From positions 248,001-312,000 of the forward strand of contig CANTFL010000320.1 of the NCBI GenBank assembly GCA_947650285.1: 64,000 bases of DNA, read 5' to 3'. This DNA is from Hyaloperonospora brassicae (taxonomy: Eukaryota > Oomycota > Peronosporomycetes > Peronosporales > Peronosporaceae). Positions 7,912-64,000 of this stretch are shown here, piece by piece. The translations under genes and the position numbers were made by a program. Numbering within the stretch: position 1 is the first letter of the stretch; every line of letters starts with the position of its first letter. The notes below the pieces were generated by a model. It was not told where the DNA came from. It ran no database searches and saw nothing but the letters and a program-made list of their open reading frames with translations.

Positions 7912-9528
7912 ATGACTCGCACTGGCTACGCGGCCATGCTCACCCCCACGAGCAACAAGGGGCTGGCGTTCACGCCCGAAGAGCGGCAGCAACTCGGTCT
8001 GCGCGGGTTACTGCCGGCAGCGGTGTCCACGACCGCGCTCGAGGCCCAGCGGGCGATGGCGGCGCTCCGTCGCAAGCCGTCCCCCATTGAGAAGTACCTC
8101 TTTATGCAGCAGCTGCAGAACACGAGCGAAGACGTGTACTACCGCCTGCTCATTGAGCACACGTGCGAGCTCCTGCCGATCGTGTACACGCCGACGGTGG
8201 GCCAGGGCTGCCAGGAGTTTAGCCACAACTACACGTCAAAGCCACGCGGTCTCTTCATCTCGGTCAACGACATTGGCCACGTGGCTGAGCTCTTGGACCA
8301 CTGGCCGGCACAGGACGTTCGAGCCATTTGCTTTACCGACGGCGAGCGCATCCTCGGCCTCGGTGACCAAGGAGCCAATGGCATGGGCATTCCCATTGGG
8401 AAGCTCGCGCTCTACACGGCGTGCGCCGGTGTCCCGCCGCATTTGTGCCTCCCCGTCGTGCTCGACTGCGGCACCAACAATGACGCGTACTTGGCCGACC
8501 CCTTGTACATTGGGCTGCGGCAGCAGCGCGTGCGGGGGGCGGTCTTTGAGCAGCTCGTGGACGAGTTTATGCACGCAGCCAAGACCAAGTATGGCCCCAG
8601 TGTGCTGCTGCAGTTTGAAGACTTTGGCAACTCGACGGCGTTTGAGCTGCTGCGGAAGTACCAGCACACGCACTGCACGTTCAACGACGACATCCAGGGC
8701 ACGGCGTCGGTCGTGCTGGCAGGTCTGTTGGCGGCGGTGCCGCTCTCGGGCAAATCCATTTGCGAACAGACGTTTCTGTTCCTCGGCGCTGGCGAAGCTG
8801 GTACGGGCATTGCCGAGCTCATTGCGCAGGCGATTGCCGACGAGACGGGCAAGTCGGTGGCAGAAGCGCGCAAACAGATTTGGCTCGTGGACTCGCGTGG
8901 GCTGATTGTGCAGTCCCGCAAGGAATCGCTGCAGCACCACAAGCTCTTGTTTGCACACGATGCGCCCGCGTGTCCAGACCTGCTGTCGGCCGTGGAGCAG
9001 ATCAAGCCGACGGCGCTCATCGGGGTGTGCACCATTGCCAAGGCTTTCAGCCAAGCTGTGTGCCAGAAGATGTGCACGTACAACGAGCGCCCCATTATCT
9101 TTGCATTGAGCAACCCCACAAGCAAGGCCGAGTGCACAGCCGAGGAGGCCTACACGTTCACCGACGGCAAGTGCATCTTTGCTAGCGGTAGCCCGTTCGA
9201 TCCGGTCGAGTACAACGGCAAACGCTACGTGCCTGGCCAGGGCAACAACGCGTACGTGTTCCCTGGCATTGGTCTCGGCATTGTAGCGGCGGGCCTGACC
9301 CACGTCAACGACGAGGTCATGATCATTGCTGCAAAGACGCTGGCTGGCTTGACCACGCCTGCTGACCTCGAGACTGGCTGTGTCTACCCGCCGCTGTCCA
9401 CGATCCGCAATGTCTCGCTCAAGATTGCTGAAGCTGTCGCGGAGTACGGGTTTGAAAAGGGCTTTGCCACGATCGCAAAGCCAGAGAACTTGGCCCGGTT
9501 TCTGAGCGATTTCATGTACACCCCCTGA
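7912..9528 (+). CDS. Malic enzyme (malate dehydrogenase, oxaloacetate-decarboxylating)
   Basis: Converts L-malate to pyruvate and CO2 while reducing NAD(P)+, linking the TCA cycle to NAD(P)H supply. The 538-residue, intron-free protein carries all family landmarks: YTPTVGQGCQEFSH (92-105), GLGDQGANGMGIPIGK with the catalytic Lys (149-164), the metal ligands in FEDF (235-238) and FNDD (257-260), the Rossmann motif GAGEAGTG (292-299), SNPTSKAE (400-407), and GQGNNAYVFPGIGLG (442-456). Length fits cytosolic NADP-type enzymes. The N-terminus shows no obvious mitochondrial presequence, so a cytosolic enzyme is likely. Coenzyme choice cannot be settled by eye. ATG 7912 is the first in-frame start. 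An initiator-like motif lies 98 bp upstream. It converges with the transporter gene at 9867. Confidence 0.95.
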   Translation: MTRTGYAAMLTPTSNKGLAFTPEERQQLGLRGLLPAAVSTTALEAQRAMAALRRKPSPIEKYLFMQQLQNTSEDVYYRLLIEHTCELLPIVYTPTVGQGCQEFSHNYTSKPRGLFISVNDIGHVAELLDHWPAQDVRAICFTDGERILGLGDQGANGMGIPIGKLALYTACAGVPPHLCLPVVLDCGTNNDAYLADPLYIGLRQQRVRGAVFEQLVDEFMHAAKTKYGPSVLLQFEDFGNSTAFELLRKYQHTHCTFNDDIQGTASVVLAGLLAAVPLSGKSICEQTFLFLGAGEAGTGIAELIAQAIADETGKSVAEARKQIWLVDSRGLIVQSRKESLQHHKLLFAHDAPACPDLLSAVEQIKPTALIGVCTIAKAFSQAVCQKMCTYNERPIIFALSNPTSKAECTAEEAYTFTDGKCIFASGSPFDPVEYNGKRYVPGQGNNAYVFPGIGLGIVAAGLTHVNDEVMIIAAKTLAGLTTPADLETGCVYPPLSTIRNVSLKIAEAVAEYGFEKGFATIAKPENLARFLSDFMYTP

Positions 9529-15479: not shown

Positions 15480-17323
15480 CGACTGCGCAGGGCGCTCGAT
15501 CGGGTGGGTGGGTGGGTGGGCCAACGGGGCAGACAGCTGGTGTCGTTGTCGCTACTGCTGCTGCTGCTGCTGCGAGAGTCAGGAGGTGGCCGAGGAGGGG
15601 CACTACTGTGGTAATGCTACCACTGGCATGCAGACGAGTAGTTGAGGCACTGGACCGGCCATTGCCCACGGCAGGTGAAGGAAGGAAGTCAGGTGAACCG
15701 GATCTCTCTTTCTCGCATGCCAAGGGCTACCGTTGAGCTTGAACATGGCAATGCACGAGCTCTTACTGCTGTAGTTGGCAGACCCGCTAGCTGAGTTTGT
15801 ACTTGGCGTGACAATCCGTTGGACGAGAGCAACGACGGAGTGGTTCAATCGATCGACCGCGTTTCGATGCAGGGAATCGTAGCTCCCTCCAGCTGATCGA
15901 CGTAGAGAGCTCTTCGACGACCAAGCTGATCGACATTTCCTCTCGCTTACCCCACTGCCAGGCGCCAATGGATCGAAACGGTCCCGCACCGCCACGTCCA
16001 TCTATCTATCTATCTGTGTATCTGCGCGAGCGATAACTTGCGTTGGCGCACCTGCTGCGACACGTGCGCTCGCGCCGGCAGGTCAAGTGAGTCGAGAGTG
16101 TGCATTGCCGGGCGGCAGTGGTCGGTCGCCTGTCGTCCAGCGCTACTACCGAGTCAGTCGTTTTTCCTGCGCAAGATCCAGCCACGAGCGACGCGCTTCT
16201 CTTGTCCAGGAGGTCCCCTCCCCACCCCACTCCCCCCTGTCACTGGCGTCGTCTGTCTATCAAGTGGCCTTTGCGGTCGGTCCTCTACGCTCGCGTCCGC
16301 TGGACAAGGGCCACGCTGCAAGTCCACATTGCAACAGTTTCGAGCTCCTGTGCGATGATGGGCACTCGAGAGAAGCAGAAGGGGACGAGCGCCTGGCCGG
16401 CGCCTGGCACTACCGGGGGATCCGTCTACCACTGCACCACCTCCGACTGCTCGGTCGCGCGACTCTCTCTCTCTTGGGATGACACTGGTCGGTCACGGGA
16501 CATCTCGGGAGCCACTTCTGTCTCTGCGTCGACGTGTTGTAAAGTTTTTACGCTATCCACAGAGAGCCGCTACTGCCCGACGTTGAGCAGGTGCGAGCGA
16601 CATAGAAAGAGACGGCTGATCCGCTTCCACCGCACGTCGTCGAGGCAACTGATGGAGGAAGTGATTGAATTGGGGATCGATTGAGTGAGTGAGTGACTGG
16701 AGGTGAGTAGCGTTTAATGGATAAAGAACTGGAAAAGTGGATGCGTCGGTGTGTGTGTGTGTGAGGGAGGGAGGGAGGGAGGGAGTAAGAGGCTCTGCGG
16801 TTCGACTTATGAGAGCGAGAACGTGGTCGCGCGACAGCAAAGTCTGACTCAGACTGGTCACACGGGCAAGCGATACAGTTGTGATTTGGCATGTGCAACG
16901 AGCCGGCGAGTGGATAGCGCTCAGCGCGTGGCACGTCCGTCTCCACTTTGCGTGGAGGTGTTACCACTGCACCGATACGATCGGATCTTGTGCGCGGCAC
17001 CGCGTTGAGGGGAGACGCTGCAAGGTGAGGTGCACTTCCAGATCCCTCAATGGAATGGAGATCGAGTCAAAGCTGAGGAGGTGTCCAGTGACGGTCAGGT
17101 AGTACTACGGATCCAGTCGTCACGGGCGTTTTTGTCAATAAAGACACCACGCAACGAACTACTCGATGAACCTCTGCTGACAGGCACTTGCTCTCGTCCA
17201 CTTCTATTGTGATTATCTCAATTCGCAGATCACACAACGCCGCTCGTATATCGACTGTAATTGGTCAAAACACATCCTGCTTTCCGTCCAATCCTACTGC
17301 GTCTCGTCCGCGCTGTATCCAAC
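15480..17323. other. Long divergent intergenic region with two G-quadruplex-type tracts
   Basis: This spacer between the divergent C2H2 and ZIP genes has no supported coding sequence. ORFs such as 16100-16684 (+) have arbitrary composition. It contains GGGTGGGTGGGTGGGTGGG at 15502-15520, a GT run and GGGAGGGAGGGAGGGAGGGAG near 16764-16785, CTG repeats near 15557-15571, TGAG repeats near 16683-16696 and a TATC run near 16001-16015. It is presumably the shared promoter region plus simple sequence. Confidence 0.5.
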
Positions 17324-18628
17324 ATGAGCAGACGCTGTCGTCCTCGTCGTCATGGCCTGCTGCTGAGTGTAGCCATCCTCAGCCTCACGCTCCTCTCGAG
17401 CGCGGACGATGCCGGCAAACTGCCTGCGACGCCTGCGGTCCTACTGCCAGAGCCCTACGAACAAGTGCGTGGCAGACCCCACCACGACCATACCCACGAC
17501 CATACCCACGACCATACCCACGACCATAACCACGACCATAACCATAACTATAACCGTAACCATGACCACGACCATAACCATGACCGTACCCACGAGCACG
17601 AACCTGTCATTCAGCCTACACCCGCTGACCGATTCTCGATCGCAGTGTGGTCCCAAGCGCTGCTCGCGACTGCCCTCGTGGGTACAGCTCCAGTGCTCGT
17701 CTTGCTGGCTGTCCCGCTCGGCACGGGGAACTCGCACACGCAGCAGTCGCTCCTGCGCGTGTTCCTGAGCTTCGCGGCCGGCGGCTTACTGGGCGACGCG
17801 CTGCTGCATCTGCTGCCCCACTCCCTCCCGGCGACAACAGGGGGTACGCACAACCATACCCACGACCATACCCATGGGGGTCATGGGCATACCCATTCGA
17901 TGGCGGACTTGTACGTGTGGCTGTGGACACTCGCAGGGATCCTGAGCTTCCTCCTGCTCGAGAAGTTTGTGCGGGCACAGAGCGGTGCAAGCACTGGCCA
18001 CTCGCACGGCCACTCGCACGCTCCGTCGGCGTCGGTGCAGGACGGCACTGCCGTCGCGACGAAGGCCACGACCGCGCGAAAGCGCTCGCAGTTGAAAGAG
18101 GGAAAAGACGGGTCGGACATTGTCGAGGAGAAGGAGCTGGTGGTGCCAGCGCAGGAGCAGAAGAAGCAGAAGACGACGTCGAAACCGGTGGCTGCTGCAG
18201 CGTACCTCAACTTGGCGGCAGACTTTTCGCACAATTTCACTGACGGCTTAGCAATTGGCGCGACGTTTGTCCGTGGAAAGGGCTGGACGACAACAGTGGC
18301 CATGTTGCTGCACGAACTGCCGCACGAGATTGGCGACTTTGCGATCCTCATCCAGTCAGGCTTTACGCGACGTGAGGCGATGGCCACGCAGCTCGTGACG
18401 GCTGTTGGGGCGATGATTGGCACGGTCATTGGGTTGCTCGTGGAAGGCGCGGGCGAGTCCAATGCTGCGTGGATCTCTCCGTTCACTGCTGGTGGCTTCA
18501 TCTACATTGCCTGTGCGAGCGTCATGCCGGAGCTGTTGGCGGACTGCTCCCTCGCTCAGTCGCTGAAAGAGGCAGCCGCCATGTGTGCGGGCATTGGACT
18601 CATGGCGCTCATTGCGCTCAATGAGTAG
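17324..18628 (+). CDS. ZIP-family zinc transporter, KE4/SLC39A7-like (LIV-1 subfamily)
   Basis: A 434-residue metal transporter predicted to move Zn2+ (possibly Mn2+ or Fe2+) into the cytosol, likely from the ER/Golgi by analogy with KE4. An N-terminal signal peptide (RRHGLLLSVAILSLTLLSSA) precedes a His-rich luminal tract of HDHT/HDHN units (about residues 54-90). Further His clusters are HNHTHDHTHGGHGHTH and GHSHGHSH. The ZIP signature follows: DFSHNFTDGLAIGATF in helix IV and LLHELPHEIGDFAIL in helix V, the HELPHE motif being characteristic of the LIV-1 subfamily. A charged loop (about residues 250-290) separates helices III and IV. ATG 17324 starts directly before the signal peptide; the frame upstream opens only with a TTG. 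Confidence 0.92.
   Translation: MSRRCRPRRHGLLLSVAILSLTLLSSADDAGKLPATPAVLLPEPYEQVRGRPHHDHTHDHTHDHTHDHNHDHNHNYNRNHDHDHNHDRTHEHEPVIQPTPADRFSIAVWSQALLATALVGTAPVLVLLAVPLGTGNSHTQQSLLRVFLSFAAGGLLGDALLHLLPHSLPATTGGTHNHTHDHTHGGHGHTHSMADLYVWLWTLAGILSFLLLEKFVRAQSGASTGHSHGHSHAPSASVQDGTAVATKATTARKRSQLKEGKDGSDIVEEKELVVPAQEQKKQKTTSKPVAAAAYLNLAADFSHNFTDGLAIGATFVRGKGWTTTVAMLLHELPHEIGDFAILIQSGFTRREAMATQLVTAVGAMIGTVIGLLVEGAGESNAAWISPFTAGGFIYIACASVMPELLADCSLAQSLKEAAAMCAGIGLMALIALNE
17484..17600 (+). repeat. 12-bp minisatellite coding for HDHT units in the ZIP transporter
   Basis: Units close to CACGACCATACC repeat head to tail, first perfect and then drifting (CATAAC, TATAAC). They encode the luminal His-rich tract. 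Such in-frame 12-bp units can change number without breaking the gene. Confidence 0.8.
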
Positions 18629-18935: not shown

Positions 18936-21900
18936 CTACGCGTCGTCTCCGTCCCTCTTCTCGTCACCATCGGTCGGGCTGTAGCCACTTGCGGTCGGGT
19001 TGTAGCCTTCCATCGGATTGTACTCTGGAGACGCGGGACTGTAGCTCGGCGACGTCGGACTGTACGCGGGAGACGTCGGCGAGTACGCCGGCGATGTCGG
19101 ACTGTACGCGGGCGATGTCGGCGAGTACGCGGGCGATGTCGGCGAGTACGCGGGCGATGTCGGCGAGTACGCGGGCGACGTCGGCGAGTACGCCGGGGAC
19201 GTCGGCGAGTAGGCCGGTGACGTGGGGCTGTACGCTGGCGATGTCGGCGAATACGCCGGAGTGTAAGCCGGGGAGGTCGGGCTGTAAGCTGGACTGGTCG
19301 GACTGTACGCAGGCGACGTCGGGCTGTACGCCGGTGAAGTCGGGCTGTACGCTGGCGACGTCGGGCTGTACGCAGGCGACGTCGGCGAGTACGCGGGCGA
19401 CGTCGGGCTGTACGCTGGGGACGTCGGGCTGTATGCAGGCGACGTCGGACTGTACGCTGGGGACGTCGGACTGTATGCCGGGGACGTCGGACTGTAGGCT
19501 GGTGATGTCGGACTATACGCCGGCGATGTCGGGGAATACGCTGGTGATGTCGGACTGTACGCCGGGGACGTCGGCGAGTACGCCGGCGATGTCGGGCTGT
19601 ACGCTGGACTGGTCGGACTATACGCTGGAGACGTTGGGCTGTAAGCCGGAGACATCGGGCTGTAAGCAGGAGACGCCGGGTTCAGCGGGGACGCAGGACT
19701 GTGTGCTGGTGAGCCCACCATAAAGCCAGGAGACGCTGGGCTTGCCATGGGCGAAAACGCACCAGCTGCTGGTGAAAACGATCCACCACCGGGGCTGAAT
19801 GGAGACGACGCTGAGAAACCGGGCGTCGATGCGAACGGGGTCGCCATGGGTGTGCCCGGGCCCTGGTCGGGGCTTCTCCATTCGTTGTCCAGACCCTGCA
19901 TCACCTGCTGGATCTCCGATGCCTCGTACTCGATCGCGTTCGCAAGCTTCTTCGCATCGAGCACCAAATCCATGATACCCGTACCGAGCGGCGCCAGCTG
20001 TCCGAGCATCACATTCTCCGATACACCCGTCAGCGGGTCTCCCTCCGAAAACATTGCGGCATCCATCAGGATTTCCACCGTCTCCTCAAACGAACAGCGG
20101 ACGAGCGGACCCGAGTCATCGCGGTTGATACCATGACGGGTAATGGCCATGAGGTGACCACGGAAAGTCATCACATCACACAGACAAGCCAAATGCCGGT
20201 AGTTGACGTACGCGCCATCGAAGGAAATCACTTGCCGAATCTCGTTCAACAGTGCTCGGCGAACAGCCTCGATGCCCAGCACCTGGATGATTTCTACAAT
20301 GTCATTCGATATCGTCCGCGTCGAGTCCACTTGTGGGTAACACATTACATCGAGAAGATTTGTACCATCCGTGTCGAGCATCCACTCGTTCATCATCTTG
20401 AACCCGACGTCGTCAAACCAGTGCGTCGACGGACCTTCGCGAATGTACACCTTCTTCACACCCTCAATGCCGCGCAACTTCATCTGCGTCAGCATATTGT
20501 GCTCTACACGCTTCAAAAACGTGTCGTCTTCCTGTCCGACTGCCGTCTCGCCTGACCGTTGTAGCTTCTCCTCTTCGTCACTCATAATGCGAATGCGCAG
20601 CACCAAGCGATCAGCGTTGTCGTCAGTAAAGATGCACATCAGGTCTTGGCCGTACTCCGCTTCAACTTGAGAAGCAATTTCACTCATCGTCAACTTCTTG
20701 TCCGCCATCATCTTCGGGTTCAACTCGATGCGCAAAAGCCACGGGGAGCGAGCGATCGGGGTGTCTTCGTCAGGCATCTCGTAATACGAAGCCACAAACT
20801 CCTGGTCCTCCTCGACCACCGTATTCATCGGGTCCGGGTCGTAGTAGATCGAAGTGTTGGCCGTCACGTCCGCCAAGGTCGTGTATTCTAGTTGCGACTG
20901 AATAAACTTGGCTTTGTCCGCATCGTGTGCGCAGTCTGGTGTCAGAAAAATGCGTAGCGACGGCGTCCGCACGACCTTTGCAATGTTCATAATCTCTTTC
21001 AAGCGAGGCACACCGAGCGTCACGTTCTTGGCGGACACACCGGCGTAGTGGAACGTGTTCAGGGTCATTTGCGTTGCAGGCTCTCCGATAGACTGCGCAC
21101 CAACGACACCTGCCATCTCTCCGGCGGACACCAACGCGCTCGTGAACTTGGATTCGATCTCGCCCATCAGCCATTCGAACGCCGTCTCGGTCAGGTGGTG
21201 CTCGAGTGTGACGCACTTTGACGCCAGCGTCGATCGCAGCAAAATCTGGAAAAACAGCGTTGCGTTCTCCTGGGCCTCAACACTCAGCTGATCCTCACCC
21301 TGCACGACTATGATCTTCTTGCACAAGTCCTTCACACCCTCAATGATACGCGACGGGTGAAGGCTAGACGGCTTCCGTACGTCAATACTGAACAACTGCT
21401 GCGCGTTCTCGACTAGACGGCGGATGTTCACAGGAATCTGAGCGGCGTTGTCCGACTCCTGTCCCTGACCGCGACTTGCCAGAATGACACGGAGGTTCAC
21501 GCGGTCTTTCTGCAGCTGCACCTGCTCTTCTCTCAACAGTTGCTGTGTCCGCTGGTTCGTGCGGATGTCCTTGATGATATCGGGCTCCAGGTACAGCTGA
21601 TCGGGACAATTTGGCATGCAACCCAGGTACTCGTCGGACGGATCAAACACGTACTTCTTCTCAAACTGCACCTTGTTCAATTTGTGCGACTCAAAACGCT
21701 GCTTCTCGACCCACACGGCGTCCATACCGTCCTCGCCGTACAGAAACTGGATAATCTCGCCTTGTGCGTTACGGACTGTGCCATCGTATCTCGTCATAAC
21801 CGACTCCATTGCCTTCACGAGTCGCCGCTGGATGTAGCCGGTCTCGGCAGTCTTCACAGCAGTATCAATCAAACCTTCGCGACCACCCATGGCGTGGAAA

Positions 21901-24616
21901 AAGAACTCCTGTGGTGTCAAACCCTTCAGGTACGAGTTCTCCACGAAGCCACGACTCTCAGGTCCCAAGTCGTCTTTCCCGTAGTGCGGCAACGTGCGGT
22001 GGTTGAACCCATACGGAATACGCTTTCCCTCGACATTCTGCTGGCCCACACAGGCAATAATCTGCGAAATGTTGATGAACGAACCCTTCGAACCAGACGT
22101 CACCGTAGCCTTAATGTTGTTCGTCTCATCTAGACTACCTTGCGCTTCGCGACCGGCCTGGTCACGGGCAGTGTTCAGCACGATGTTCACCAGACCTTCA
22201 AACGACTCGACCATTGTTCGACCAGGCTGAGTCTCTAGTTTCCCCTTTTGACCACGCACGACCAAATCGTGCACCTGCACCTTGGCTTGCGTAATGATAT
22301 CGACGATGGTCTTGAGCGTAGACACATCAGCAATCGTGTCGCTCACACCAACAGTGAAACTACGACCGGCCAGCCAGCAGTTCACGAGCTGCTGAATGGC
22401 ACCGAGCAGGCGCTTCGTTTCTTCAGGGCCCTTCTCAAGCATCGTGATGTGAATCAAACCACCTGCTGATGAACCGATAATCTTCTTGTCAATGATGCCT
22501 GCTAACAGCTCGCCCTGCTGAATGATCACGCGAGAATCAATTGGTGACAGCTCTGAAAACTTCTCGCTGCTTTTGTGTGTGGACGAAAACCCCGTGAAGT
22601 TCACCGCCGGAATAATCGTAGAAAAGAGCTGCTTGCCAGTCCAGATGGGAGTGTACTTGCCCAACTCGCCCTTCTTCGGCACCAGAATGGCCGGTGTTGG
22701 CACCTTGCCGTCCCAGTTGGACACCCACATTAGCATGTTCATTACCCAATCCTTGCTCACAAATATATCTCGCTTCGTAAACTTTTGCGCACCCAGCAAC
22801 GAATCTTGCACAATACCCATGACAGGGCGGTTGCTCTGGGGTGTGATGATCACTTTGTGCACCATCATCAGCTCTTGCGCGTCAGCACGTGCAGTCATGG
22901 ACTGAGGCACGTGCAAGTTCATCTCATCACCGTCGAAATCGGCATTGTACGGAGACGTCACGGAGAGGTTTAGACGAAACGTCGACCAGTCAAACACCTT
23001 CACGCGGTGCGACATGATCGACATTTTGTGCAAAGAAGGCTGACGATTGAACAGCACGAGATCGTCGTCACGAAGGTGACGCTCGACGATCCAACCGCAC
23101 TTCAGTGCGAGATCCGACTTGTTCTTTATGTATCGCAAATCGATACGATTACCGTCCTCGCGAATGATGTATTTAGCTCCTGGATGTTCCAGCGGACCGT
23201 TAGCAATCAGTTGGTGCATGTAATTCATGTTGAACGGCGTCACGCGCTCCGGTACAGTCAAATTCATTGCAATTGACCGGGGAACGCCCACTTGGTCGAT
23301 CGCAATGTTCGGGTCAGCGGTAATGACCGTACGCGCCGAGAAATCGACACGCTTGCCCATCAAATTACCTCGAATACGTCCTTCTTTACCACGCAAGCGT
23401 TGTCGCAGCGTCTTCAGCGGTTTGCCGGACCGCTGCTGAGCTTGCGGAAGGCCCGGTTGTTCGTTGTTCAAGAAGGTCGCCAAGTGGAACTGCAGCAGCT
23501 GCTCAAACTGCTCGATAATGTGAGATGGCTCGCCCTTCCGTACACAATTCAGCAACGCCAAATTCGCCTTCACGATCGAGGCCAAGTTGTGTGTCAGGTC
23601 ATCCTCACCGCGCGCCATGCCGTCTATCGCTACAGACGGACGAACGTGCGGAGGCGGCACAGGCATCAAAGTCATCACGAGCCAGTCTGGACGAGCCCAG
23701 CGCGGGTCCAGCCCGAGTGCATAGCAGTCTTGGTCCGAGATGTTCTTGAAGATCGACATCACTTTCGCGGCCGGCAAGTTCTGCTTGCGGTCTCCCGACC
23801 CCGGCACGTCTTCCATCTGTTCGGGAAACTCGACCATCAGTTTGATGCCTTGTTTGCGGTACTTTGGCTGGAGACCACCACAGCCGCCATGCCCGCCTTC
23901 CTTTGGCTTGGACTTGTCGTCCAGTCCGCCTTGCAGACCAATGTTCAAATCCTCGCGCATCTTCTCCATATCCGCTTCTTCGCCGTACTCGCACATGCTC
24001 TTGTTGCTGCAAAACTCGTACACGGCCTTGAGCCGGCGCTTGCCGTTCTTGATCTTCATCGCCGACCGGAAGCGGTGGTCGCGCTCGTCGCTCAGCACTT
24101 TCGAGCAATGGAAACACACCGACCGCAGGATCTTGAGCACTTCTTTCATAAAGCCCATGTGGAACATGGGACGGGCCAGCTCAATGTGGCCAAAGTGGCC
24201 TGGACAGTCGTTCACTTTGCCCCCACTGCCGCTGTACGTACCTACAGATAGATAGAGAGAGTAACAGCACACAAAGCAGAGCCAGAAGAGCAACAGCGTC
24301 AGCCTCGACACAGTCATGTGCCCATCGCCACAAATCGTCGCTTGGGTCCAGTATCGAACAACGTACAGTCGCAGGTTTTACAGCGCGCGCGAAAGTCGCA
24401 CGTGCCCATGCGCGGGTCGCCAATGCCGCCGATCACGGGGTGTCCGTTTAAGTACGTTTCGGGCCGCGAGATGCCGTCGGGGATGATGCGGTCGTTGACT
24501 TTGGTCTGTTTCGTCACTGACATCGCGCGGATCTCTTCGGGGCTAAAGACACCGAACTGGAGGTACTTCACGCGCCGCAGCCGCGCGCTCGAGTACGAGA
24601 ATTGCGTGGACGACAT
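18936..24616 (-). CDS. RPB1: RNA polymerase II largest subunit RPB1
   Basis: Catalytic subunit of RNA polymerase II, 1851 residues from two exons: 24616-24367 and 24241-18936. The 125-bp intron starts GTACGT and ends CTGTAG after a pyrimidine tract, and the join preserves phase. Landmarks include the clamp zinc site (CKTC...CPGHFGH), GHGGCGGLQP, VDFSARTVITADPN, the active-site loop YNADFDGDEMNLHVPQ (about residue 515) binding Mg-A, the bridge helix and trigger loop around GGREGLIDTAVKTAETGYIQ (about 870), and the cleft end SNDIVEIIQVLGIEAVR. After a Gly/Ser/Pro linker the CTD has about 31 heptads, nearly all YSPTSPA, and an acidic end. The upstream ATG-less extension to 24784 is not needed; MSSTQFSY at 24616 fits the family start. 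Confidence 0.97.
19021..19679 (-). repeat. RPB1 CTD heptad array (21-bp DNA units)
   Basis: About 31 units of YSPxSPx are readable. Almost all are YSPTSPA. The first is YSPMSPA, the last two are YSPTSPS and YSPASPE, and one four-residue YTPA interrupts the register near 19260. Third-codon positions vary between units, so the protein repeat is older and better kept than the DNA repeat. Confidence 0.95.
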
Positions 24617-58796: not shown

Positions 58797-61095
58797 CAAC
58801 ACAACCTGGACCTGTTCTTCCAGCGAACAGGGATCGGTAGGCATTTGACAGAGCCGCATACAAATGCGTCGATTGGCAAAGCCGAAAGAATGCATCACAC
58901 CATCATGAGTATATGGGGCGGTGTATGCTCTGGATTACCTTTGCGTTTCTGTGGGTTCGCGGCTACATATACAGCTCACGTGCTCAATCGGATGCCGACG
59001 AGAGCCAATTTAGGGCGTAAGTCACCACTTGAGTGCCTGACCGGGAGACCAGTAGACACTGTCGACGAGGTGGTCCTTAAGTCACCGTGCAAATGTACCA
59101 GTGACCGAAAAAGAAGACCGTTGGCAACGCAGCACTGCCGGTGTCATTATCGGTAAAGTCGAAGAGACAAAAGGATACAACGTTCTGCCACCTAGCAACA
59201 GCACAGTCATCGCCCCACGCCACATCGGGCAAGTGGAAACGTTGATAGCAGAGGCGAACGAGCCGATCAAGCGCACGCTTGAAGGAGATAGCGACGATGA
59301 ACTCGAGCGGCTAGTAGTTATGAAAGAACGGGACCGACAACGGGAGAACCAATGCCGAGGAGAAGTCAGCATCCCGAGCTGGTGCTCACGACGTGAATTT
59401 CGCGTCACCCCATGATGGACAGAGTCAACGACTGAGCGAGCCACGAATTGGCGGGCGAGACCATGCAATGCCGTTGCCTAACTAAAGCCTTGAGCGTGTC
59501 AACGAATCGTGACGGTCAGATCGCAAACGTGTAAATTCTGCGAAATAGATGGACGCGGATGAGTCCCACGCAAGCGCAAATGCTCGCAACCCGCCTTCCG
59601 TGCCATCTACCACTATGCGCTGGAAAGAGGTAGTCCTTTTGGTTGCAAGCGCGGCGACGCAGACGTTTGCAATGTCGGCGTTAAGAAGAAGGAAGGAAGA
59701 GTATGCGTAATTCCCGGATCCTGAATCCTACAACGTATCGCTCACGTCACCCGAAGCCCATTCGTGGGAGATCGCGTCACTTGGGGAAAAACTTCACTGG
59801 GAGCTTGTGAAAGTTGAGAGCAGTATGCACGTTCTGACAAGCAAGTGGGTCTAATTGAGAAAGAAGGACGGGCATTGCGCTATCGAACGGTACAAGGCGC
59901 GGCTAGTGGCGGGTGGAGATGACCGGGTGTTCGAACGTGACGACAATCTCACGTTCGGCGCAGTACTCGAGATGATCAGCGGAAATGTTCTGCTGGCTGC
60001 AGCGAGGGCATGACCCCTAGTGACGAAGAACTACGCAAAGCCGGGGCGAAGATGCGAGCGACATGTGCCTGGGTCGAGTGAATAGTCCATATGGCCTCAA
60101 ACAAGCAGGAAGAATGAGGAATTAGCCCCTGCATCGCACGCTGATGAAAGCAGGGTGTTTGCAGTCAATCACTCATGCATGCGTGTATTACCAAACCACA
60201 ACGGAAGGGACAGTGGTGATTGGGACGTACATGGACGACTTGCTGGCTGTCGCGACGCATGACGAATTTCTCGACGAATCCGGCAGCACGATGACCATCA
60301 GCTTGGAACTCAATTGCTTTGGTGTTGTGGAGAACTGTTTCGGGATGCACATTGGTTGCAACGACGCGACTGGTTGCCGTATTGGTCAAAAGCAAATGAT
60401 GACAGACCTGTTGCACAAGAAGCGTCTCGAGAAGGTCAATGCAGTACGAGCGCCAATAGCTGGTGAGTCGTCGTTGGAGTCAGAAAGCGAGAAAGTTATG
60501 GCACTGCCGACAAGTAAACCCGGAACAGCAGAATCGCCAACCGTGAAGAGCTTTCAATCTCGCGTCGGCAGCCTGTTATGGATTGCCACGTGCAGCCGAC
60601 CCGATGTGGCGTATGCCGTACACAGAGCTACACGCCAGAGCCACGCACCTACGGATCAAGATGTGAGGATTGCACGAAGGGTATGACGGTACCCGACAGG
60701 GACGGCAAGCGCATGACTGCACATGAGAGGGGACGTTTTGCGACGCGAATCGAACCCAAGAGCGAAACCAACGCCGACTTTGTTGCCGACAAGAGTTCGC
60801 ACAAATTCGTCAGTGGCGCAATTGAATTCATGAACGGCACACGCCTGTAGGATGGCAAGTGAAGCAGCCGTCATCAGTCGCGCTCTAGAGTGCCTAGACG
60901 GGGTTAGTAGCTGATGCAAATGGTGCAAAAGAGCTGCTACATGTACGTAATCTGTTGTGTGAGTTGGGCTACGCGTGGAGCGGCCACTGTCGATGCTGAT
61001 TGACAACCAAACCGCTATCAAACCCAATTGAGAACGAGGCGACGTCGAGTAGCCAGAAGCACGTGGTCGTACGTCAGGCATATGTCCACACAAGA
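58797..61095 (+). mobile_element. Ty1/copia retrotransposon remnant (integrase, RT, RNase H)
   Basis: In order on the plus strand: integrase C-terminal half (TEPHTNASIGKAERMHHTIM, then HVLNRMPTRANLG, about 58848-59010), a copia-type linker (GVIIGKVEETKGYNV, about 59139), the start of RT (AIERYKARLVAGGD, about 59880), RT palm with TYMDDLLAVAT (about 60225), the conserved SRVGSLLWIATCSRPDVAYAVHRAT-type region (60560-60640, given here by position), and RNase H pieces (NADFVADKSSHKFVSGA, about 60771; a final LIDNQTAIKP-like block near 60994). Stops and frameshifts are frequent. The 5' half is absent, which fits interruption by the LINE. No LTR was found. Confidence 0.85.
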
Positions 61096-61515: not shown

Positions 61516-63566
61516 ATGAACACACGTAGCTCGCCCGAGACGCCGATGACTATTTGGGCGTTGCCGCGACCGCCAGCCTCGACTGGAGCGCCCCCGAGCG
61601 CCGTCCTGCCTTCTCTGTCGCTGACGCCAGCCCCGGCGTCTGCCAGCGCGTCCTGCTCGCCGTACACCAAGAGCTCGACGCGCTACGCCAGACGCGCCGC
61701 CATGGAAGGCAAGAGTTTGTTTACGTGCCACCAATGCGGTGCGCTGCTCAAGTTCCAGTACAGTCCCGTGTCGATTGAAGAGAAGATCATGCGGCTTCGA
61801 CCCGTGGCGTACGAGCATCCGGTGGACCCGGGCGAGCAGCGATTCAGCAAAGGAGAAGAAGAGGATCAGGGAGCTCGACTGACCGAAGGAACGGACGCTG
61901 GAGAAACTACGGACGCAGACGAAGAAGAAGAAGCTGCAGCACCAGCACAGACAGTGAGATCGTCGCTCAGTCAACAGCAACAGCAGCAGCAAAAGACGTC
62001 GGCCGTTGTTCCCGAGATTGTCTGGGAACGACAACATCTGGACATCAGCGAAGAGAGTGGTGCTTGGATGCCTGCTGAGTTCGACCTCATGAATGGGATT
62101 GCCGCTTTTACGAGCTGCAATCGGGGAGATATCGGACAGAGCATTGCAGATGTCGTGCCCGCGCGGCTATTGAACAAATCACACTTGTGGATGTCCGATT
62201 GGGAGATCGACCTTTCTCTTCCGCAATGTGATAGGGAAGGGTGGGTGTATGCAGCATCGTACGCTGCATTTGGTGCGATAGAGGGACTCGTTGCTTCTGA
62301 GAAGGAGGTGGCAAATGAGAACGAACACAGCGGCCCTGCAGCAAGAACTGATGCGTGTCCACAGGTACGCCAAAGGCGTTTGATCCGCAAGCGCCGCATC
62401 GATGGCAGCGATCTCTGCTGGTTTCAGGAACTGTTGGACTGCAGGTACGCTTGAGCAACTGGCTTGTACATGAGATACACTGTAACTAAATACGGTGATT
62501 GTTCTTGCAGCACGGTTCTCCTGAAGAAGAGGCTACCAACTTGCCATGACTGTGAAGCCAAGGTAGTTTCCCGATTTACTCAGTACGTGAAACATCGTGG
62601 TAGGGAGTCTGCTGTTTGTCCTCAGTGGGAGCTGACTGATTGTCATACGTTTTTCGTTCGATCTGCTGCAGAGCATTGCACGAACTTGAGAAAGACCACA
62701 CCCAATATGAGGGGTTTATGGCCCAGTTCGTAGACGAAGAGCGAGCGTCAGGACGAACGTTTTGCGATGACGTCGACTACGATGATGATAGCGATGAGTG
62801 GCGCGCTGACCCAGAGCTTCGTGCTCTAGAAGAAGAAGAGCGACAGCTTAAGGCTGAGTTGGAAGCCATTGAGGATGAGACTGCACAAGTCGCAGCGAAG
62901 AGGCGCGAGCTTTGGTCAACCGGAATGGATCTCGAGCATTTGGTCCACGGCACGTTTGCTGAAGGAGCGTTTCTGCAGCATTTGTTGGGTCTGAGTCGCG
63001 ACGAGCGCCAATCGGTGGGCGTATTCGCCGTTCATGCGTCCGATATGCTACGCCGTCTCCAACGCTACAACGTCTGCAACGATGTGTTCCACATTTGGCA
63101 CGACGGTCTTTTCGGGACGATCAATGGCCTTCGGCTCGGTCGGCTGCCATCAAAGCCAGTGGAGTGGGTGGAGATCAATGCTGCGATGGGCCAGGCAGTG
63201 TTGTTGCTGGCAACGATCGCTGATCGCGCTGATTTTGAGTTTTCACGGAATCGCCTTGTACCTCGAGGGAGCTACTCCCGCGTGGTCAATATGTACGGAA
63301 AGGAGTACAGCCTCTACAGCGACGGTGGTATGTTCCGCCGTCGTGGCTTCAACCAGGCCATGATCCTTTTTCTCGAGTGCGTCGAAGACGCGGGTCGTCG
63401 TGCGATGAAAGAAGAACCTTCCCTCAAGTTTCCGTACAAGGTCGAGCGAGGCAAGATTGGTGGTTTGCCCATTTCACTCGGCAACGACGAGCAGTGGACG
63501 CGAGCGCTCAAGTATATGCTCACGCACCTGAAATGGCTACTGGCTTGGATTTCCAAGCGCTACTGA
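61516..63566 (+). CDS. ATG6: Beclin 1/ATG6 with an embedded dysferlin-type (DysF) domain
   Basis: Core subunit of the Vps34 PI3-kinase complexes in autophagy and endosomal sorting. Three exons (61516-62444, 62511-62582, 62672-63566; introns 66 and 89 bp, donors GTACGC and GTACGT) join in phase to 631 residues. FTCHQCGALLKF (69-80) matches the Beclin N-terminus. An acidic/polyQ linker leads to a DysF-like region (about 166-296: EIVWERQHLD, LWMSDWEIDL, CDREGWVYA, VRQRRLIRKRR). CHDC (321-324), a coiled coil (335-405) and the C-terminal evolutionarily conserved (BARA) domain (FHIWHDGLFGTINGLRLG, PVEWVEINAAMGQAVLLL, EQWTRALKYMLTHLKWLLAW) follow. Beclins are usually near 450 residues. ATG 61702 (MEGKSLFTC, in GCCGCCATGG) is a strong alternative start giving 569 residues. 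Confidence 0.92.
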
Positions 63567-63752: not shown

Positions 63753-64000
63753 CTACAAAAGTTGCTGGATGGCCTTGTGAATCGCGTTCGCAGCGTATAG
63801 TACCTCTTCCTGTGTCGTCGAGCGACCGACGGACAAGCGAAGTGTCCCCTTGGCAAACGCTGGAGCCACCTTCATGGCCGCCAGCACGTGCGAAATAGTA
63901 ACATTGTCTTCTTGATGCTCAAAGCTCTTGTCCTCTTCTGTAGTGTCGTCGTACTGCTTGTGGCTATGGCATGCAGATCCCGCGCTTGCACACACACCGT
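63753..64000 (-). CDS. Cysteine desulfurase/selenocysteine lyase-like protein, C-terminal part (cut by window end)
   Basis: The last 80 or so codons of a class V aminotransferase-fold enzyme. The minus strand reads VCASAGSACHSH, SHVLAAMKVAPAFAKGTLRL and SVGRSTTQEEVLYAANAIHK to a stop at 63753. The SAGSACHS segment corresponds to the loop with the conserved Cys, and LRLSVGRSTT is typical of NifS/SCLY-type enzymes. These PLP enzymes release sulfur from Cys or selenium from selenocysteine. The acidic insert between the two motifs is unusual in length. The catalytic Lys and PLP site lie beyond the window. It converges with the Beclin gene, with 186 bp between the stops. Confidence 0.8.
   Translation of the reverse strand, partial: GVCASAGSACHSHKQYDDTTEEDKSFEHQEDNVTISHVLAAMKVAPAFAKGTLRLSVGRSTTQEEVLYAANAIHKAIQQLL

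Follow-up and report, generated by a model that had tools for sequence, protein, structure and literature searches.

A Beclin with a DysF domain in its N-terminal half in the oomycete Hyaloperonospora brassicae

Autophagosome formation is started by a lipid kinase of which Beclin is a core subunit. How that kinase learns which membrane is its target is, to our knowledge, an open question. The present study concerns a stretch of 64,000 nucleotides from the Hyaloperonospora brassicae genome (contig CANTFL010000320.1, positions 248,001 to 312,000; hereafter the window) and a three-exon gene at 61516-63566 on its forward strand. The gene is a well conserved oomycete Beclin with a dysferlin-type (DysF) domain between its N-terminal CxxC motif and the segment that holds a BH3-like helix and a second CxxC; the corresponding stretch is disordered in other Beclins. 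A lineage in which a conserved Beclin bears a domain of a class that binds lipids makes the question of membrane targeting testable, and through such a domain the condition of a membrane could act directly on the onset of autophagy. Many oomycetes are pathogens of plants or fish.

It was found that the segments 61516-62444, 62511-62582 and 62672-63566 join into a single open frame of 631 amino acids, in which an N-terminal CxxC, the DysF domain, the BH3-like helix, a second CxxC, a coiled coil and the BARA domain follow one another. The two long frames were scanned separately against Pfam, and the frame of exon 3 matched both PF04111 (APG6, the BARA domain) with 208.8 bits (cut-off 34) and PF17675 (APG6_N, the coiled coil) with 55.2 bits (cut-off 45). 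An earlier reading of the DNA from its letters alone (the sequence-only reading) had named the gene Beclin 1/ATG6, and these matches bear it out. In a PDB search with the whole protein, Beclin-1 chains stood at the top (best E 1.4e-48). Beclins characteristically have two CxxC motifs in their N-terminal half, and the window protein has both (FTCHQC and PTCHDC), as do most of 22 aligned proteins; the full pair is lacking, for example, in P0030, P0036 and P0037. The first homologue search returned at least 134 proteins at E <=0.001 among 8000 scored candidates, the closest among the matches listed being a protein of Hyaloperonospora arabidopsidis with 88% identity over 90% of the query. The human aromatic finger is FFW, and its place in the window protein is taken by FRRRGF; this feature was left unused because P0146, which has no DysF match, has a similar FFNRRRF.

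The DysF domain of exon 1

The DysF domain covers residues 167-294 (62014-62397, forward strand). Its DysFN half, which begins with EIVWERQ at residue 167 and includes GAW, lies at 62014-62187. The DysFC core follows at 62188-62253, with WMSDWEID at residues 225-232 and DREGWVYA at 239-246, and after a variable loop (residues 247-283, 62254-62364) the domain closes with the basic end VRQRRLIRKRR (residues 284-294, 62365-62397). The sequence-only reading had taken these motifs for the landmarks of a DysF domain. It had also proposed a direct scan with domain-library profiles. That scan came back empty for the window itself, and the identification was obtained by other routes, namely a profile search of PDB, hhalign and a search of the same genome.

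In the Pfam scan of the window frames no family passed its cut-off in exon 1, and there was no match even at E 1 to Pex24p, the DysF-containing family of Pfam. Among the aligned members, 6 of 40 matched Pex24p somewhere along their length at E up to 10, the best at a non-significant 0.16. A NCBIfam scan of two orthologues gave no family, in a library that covers bacteria and archaea. It should be noted here that Pex24p, whose cut-off is 26.8 bits, gives three DysF proteins of the same genome scores of 39.3, 27.2 and 20.5 bits, so the model is insensitive here. Since the Pfam scan was silent, a profile (A3) was made from 17 orthologous stretches and searched against 177,635 distinct PDB sequences. 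Its best match was the DysF domain of myoferlin, at E 4.7e-4.

Several observations weigh against a DysF identity. Besides the silent Pfam scan, the PDB search gave six matches in all at E up to 10, and those to the DysF domains of TECPR1 (2.8) and dysferlin (5) and to full-length myoferlin (9.4) are each non-significant alone. Two arginine-rich ribosomal proteins (E 1.2 and 2.3) score better than TECPR1 and dysferlin in the same search. The DysF matches moreover overlap at profile positions 56-136, which is the DysFC half only. The insert could thus be read as a chance likeness of a sequence rich in tryptophan and arginine, or as part of another gene, and the missing direct Pfam match and the weak ribosomal matches speak for the former. 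Against it, hhalign with three DysF domains of the same genome reached a score of 106.3 over 110 columns and covered DysFN as well as DysFC, the best of 100 column shuffles reaching 19.5; a reversal control also speaks against chance. With a TECPR1 piece hhalign gave 91.1% over 55 columns of DysFC only, so that the DysFN half lies outside both this alignment and the PDB match. The single stretch from the window, searched against its own genome, retrieved three places besides itself, on contigs C62 (E 1.0e-4), C24 (0.045) and C843 (0.092), of which C62 and C24 match Pex24p as well. Chance likeness is rejected on the own-genome search, hhalign, the controls and the profile searches, and the alternative as a whole is highly improbable. 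By sequence, the insert is confirmed as a DysF domain.

The second half of that alternative, a separate gene for exon 1, is answered by joined proteins. Gene models of many species predict proteins with this domain order. Among these proteins P0016 and P0018, of the 'lgn' source, run unbroken through both exon junctions; their longest contigs measure 2268 and 2486 bases. Because these proteins cross the junctions unbroken, their contigs would be free of introns, and both probably derive from spliced transcripts. Other proteins of this source (P0040, P0041, P0121, P0122, P0125 and P0126) seem, by eye, to enter or to begin in an intron. Two separate genes are rejected on the continuity of P0016 and P0018, and the joining of exon 1 and the Beclin exons into one gene, as first read from the letters, stands as far as protein continuity shows.

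The TECPR1 alignment offers a residue-by-residue view. In the TECPR1 DysF domain, tryptophans 116, 118, 122 and 138 and arginines 159, 161, 165 and 167 are stacked (PMC10476172). The window protein has seven of these eight scaffold residues: W225, W229 and W243 align with W118, W122 and W138, and R285, R287, R291 and R293 of the basic end with R159, R161, R165 and R167. All seven columns are within the twelve invariant columns of A3. TECPR1 W116 is without a counterpart, which adds to the points against.

A few observations on the other DysF-type proteins of the genome can be placed here. Those on contigs C24, C808 and C62 comprise VASt (two stretches) with DysF, C2 with DysF, and a DysF domain ahead of a long C-terminal part. 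The locus G000:C843:191765-191968, taken with its flanks, belongs to a P4-ATPase (phospholipid flippase; PhoLip_ATPase_C 212.1 bits) with a likely, partly degenerate DysF after the transmembrane part (A3 E 0.0046, broad profile 1.1e-5). It gave no Pex24p match at E 0.1, its DysF call coming from this study's own profiles, and it is possibly a fusion of flippase and DysF.

Distribution among Beclins and the second Beclin gene

Among 173 collected Beclins a DysF domain turned up in 40, every one of them in the oomycete-like set. Outside that set the collection, which was capped in size, has 104 Beclins with a length of 350 amino acids or more, and none of them gave a DysF match; the domain is a feature of oomycetes that these Beclins do not share. 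The sequence-only reading had held that the Beclins of animals, fungi and plants lack the domain, with which the collection agrees, and had suggested looking for the same architecture in other oomycete and stramenopile ATG6 proteins. Conservation of the DysF-bearing Beclin in oomycetes is shown by these sequences. In two environmental relatives, P0037 and P0038, the domain looks degenerate (E 0.04 at best). Of the sequences that bear on whether ochrophyte Beclins ever had the domain, Tribonema P0157 gave no DysF match, and no CxxC segment was seen in its gene model either; P0142 and P0153 are short. A search with region 215-345 of P0031 gave 59 candidates and four matches including the query, all Saprolegniales-type Beclins. 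The DysF match of P0031 lies at 153-266, so the region held part of the domain and the low yield is uninformative. In a tree of BARA domains the window gene groups with other stramenopile Beclins, in an order that is not firm at depth, several branches being long. Transfer of the gene from animals was rejected on this placement. No earlier report of a DysF domain in an oomycete Beclin was found in a literature search, most subscription papers being outside its coverage.

Conservation was scored as mean identity among 21 Peronosporales-type proteins, gaps counting as differences. The variable loop reaches 0.28 and the DysF segments on its two sides 0.78 and 0.84. The other segments have 0.67 (acidic linker), 0.75 (CxxC segment), 0.71 (BH3-like), 0.70 (coiled coil) and 0.93 (BARA). 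In conservation the DysF core is on a par with its neighbours and not above them, which counts against the lipid-reading role proposed below. Between Peronosporales and Saprolegniales the identity is 0.24 in the segment from DysFN to the tryptophans, 0.63 in the basic end and 0.68 in BARA. The CxxC segment has 0.65 identity to Pythiales-type proteins and 0.14 to Saprolegniales.

The genome has a second, strongly diverged Beclin locus (G000:C808:240000-246000), matched in two stretches at some 75 bits apiece. In the tree this Beclin, represented by three joined exon pieces, sits on a very long branch (2.18). The DysF profile found nothing in the six-frame pieces of the 6-kb stretch around it (best E 29). 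Two ATG6 genes per species are also described in Phytophthora sojae (PsAtg6a and PsAtg6b), and silencing of PsAtg6a gave fewer sporangia and lower virulence, while for PsAtg6b, PsAtg1, PsAtg8 and PsAtg9 no stable transformants were obtained (PMC5431975). Domain make-up is stated there to be similar within each ATG class of P. sojae, except for Atg1, Atg11 and Vps34 (PMC5431975). PlATG6a of Peronophythora litchii has 514 amino acids and 22% identity with PlATG6b, whose function is said to need study (PMC8836449). The word 'DysF' is absent from the main text of both papers, and 'dysferlin' from the main text of the first (PMC5431975, PMC8836449). By length alone the window gene may be of the ATG6b type, an assignment that is weak because its Phytophthora orthologues span 544 to 850 amino acids.

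Gene structure and neighbourhood

The exon order, coordinates and motifs of the sequence-only reading agree with the splice join and the translation. Exon 1 (61516-62444) encodes residues 1-309 plus two bases of codon 310, as seen from its open frame, the splice join and the order in orthologues. It consists of a low-complexity N terminus, the CxxC segment MEGKSLFTCHQCGALLKF (61702-61755, CxxC at residues 69-74), an acidic and glutamine-rich linker, the DysF domain and the BH3-like helix region SDLCWFQELLDC (62407-62442), which lies ahead of the second CxxC. The likeness of the CxxC segment to other Beclin N termini is a reading by eye, as is, from the alignment, that of the BH3-like helix. 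Intron 1 (62445-62510, 66 nucleotides, GTACGC...TTGCAG) follows from the splice join, and P0016 and P0018 are continuous at this point. Exon 2 (62511-62582) holds the second CxxC (PTCHDCE) and the start of the coiled-coil region, in accordance with the splice join and the orthologue alignment. Intron 2 (62583-62671) is of 89 nucleotides and reads GTACGT...CTGCAG. An end of exon 2 at 62562, which gives a 624-residue model, was rejected, and the donor at 62583 was chosen because comparison with the orthologue P0001 indicates it. The 624-residue model had served as query of the first homologue search; the 631-residue model was that of the whole-protein PDB search. Exon 3 (62672-63566), defined by the Pfam matches and the splice join, encodes the coiled coil (62673-63050), the BARA domain (63057-63557) and the stop codon. 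All features are on the forward strand.

A reverse transcriptase remnant (60144-60686, forward strand; RVT_2 32.1 bits, cut-off 31.6) precedes the Beclin gene at a distance of less than 1 kb. Downstream, a convergent open frame at 63753-63998 on the reverse strand leaves the window at its end; it has no Pfam match at E 1e-4 and by eye looks like the last part of a cysteine desulfurase-like protein. Pfam also identified a malic enzyme (7912-9525), a ZIP transporter (17261-18628) and the largest subunit of RNA polymerase II (18936-24317, reverse strand) farther away.

Possible function and comparison with known systems

Homology in the coiled coil and the BARA domain suggests that the protein acts as a subunit of the Vps34 phosphatidylinositol 3-kinase complex. 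The DysF domain would then be a second membrane-contact module, one that recognises a phospholipid or a sphingophospholipid in the membrane to be acted on, and phosphatidylinositol 3-phosphate would be produced at sites of exposure or enrichment of that lipid. Other Vps34 complexes would be served by the second Beclin, which gave no DysF match. Candidate lipids are phosphatidic acid and ceramide phosphoethanolamine. The DysF domains of Pex30, Pex31 and dysferlin bind phosphatidic acid liposomes (PMC12101078), and a review gives ceramide phosphoethanolamine as the main sphingolipid that oomycetes have (PMC9505663), its presence in them being stated also in a second paper (PMC9174665). The lipid link drawn by the sequence-only reading is thus plausible in general, and we consider a lipid-reading module on the Vps34 complex the probable role of the domain, by a modest margin.

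The specific form of that link was a sensor of membrane damage which recognises sphingomyelin as TECPR1 does. In such a case the domain would detect a luminal sphingophospholipid, ceramide phosphoethanolamine, upon rupture of an endomembrane and bring Vps34 to it, a single polypeptide taking the part that TECPR1 plays for the ATG5-ATG12 ligase. It is in its favour that the sole human DysF found to sense exposed sphingomyelin belongs to an autophagy protein (PMC10476172) and that the major oomycete sphingolipid is the one named above (PMC9505663). However, in the TECPR1 work mutation of R76, W77, C84, L88, L89, S90, I142, D143, K152, K153, W154 or C157 abolishes recruitment, and the other human DysF domains tested are not recruited to damaged membranes (PMC10476172). 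Of those twelve tip residues the window protein keeps one, L89, which also counts against the lipid role at large; W77 aligns with leucine and W154 with alanine, in loops whose alignment is uncertain. The place of the K152-K153-W154 tip is taken by the long, variable loop. We regard a TECPR1-type damage sensor as unlikely, and so far unsupported, because the sphingomyelin tip is absent.

Such a combination of retained scaffold and altered tip would fit a DysF domain that reads another lipid, and also one that has lost lipid binding. The domain could be structural or protein-binding, positioning the N terminus or holding an oomycete-specific partner, with no lipid role. The retained scaffold residues, the variable tip loop and the degenerate-looking domains of P0037 and P0038 agree with this; the lipid binding of the Pex30, Pex31, dysferlin and TECPR1 domains (PMC10476172, PMC12101078) argues against it, as does the fact that three of the four other DysF-type proteins of the genome have lipid or membrane domains. 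It is a minority view in our estimate, and lipid reading is preferred. An equally tentative extension of lipid reading is that oomycetes have fused a reader of lipid damage onto the core Beclin, such that endomembranes that are broken or altered in their lipids would trigger synthesis of phosphatidylinositol 3-phosphate in the absence of a separate receptor, ceramide phosphoethanolamine or phosphatidic acid being read by a tip unlike that of TECPR1.

Among known systems, Beclin 1, ATG6 and Vps30 share with the window protein the coiled coil, the BARA domain and the two CxxC motifs, whereas the DysF domain in the N-terminal half sets it apart. The paired genes PsAtg6a/PsAtg6b and PlATG6a/PlATG6b have their parallel in the two Beclin loci of this genome. 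The N-terminal DysF of TECPR1 (8p5p) likewise stands in an autophagy protein and shares seven of the eight stacking residues; it differs in 11 of the 12 residues of the sphingomyelin tip, and TECPR1 also has tectonin repeats, an ATG5-interacting region and a PH domain (PMC10476172). By profile, the domain is of the same DysF family as the inner DysF of ferlins (myoferlin 2k2o, dysferlin 4cah) and the DysF of the Pex30 family. The ferlins differ in that their DysF is nested within another DysF (PMC10476172), and Pex30 in that it is a membrane protein of the endoplasmic reticulum (PMC12101078).
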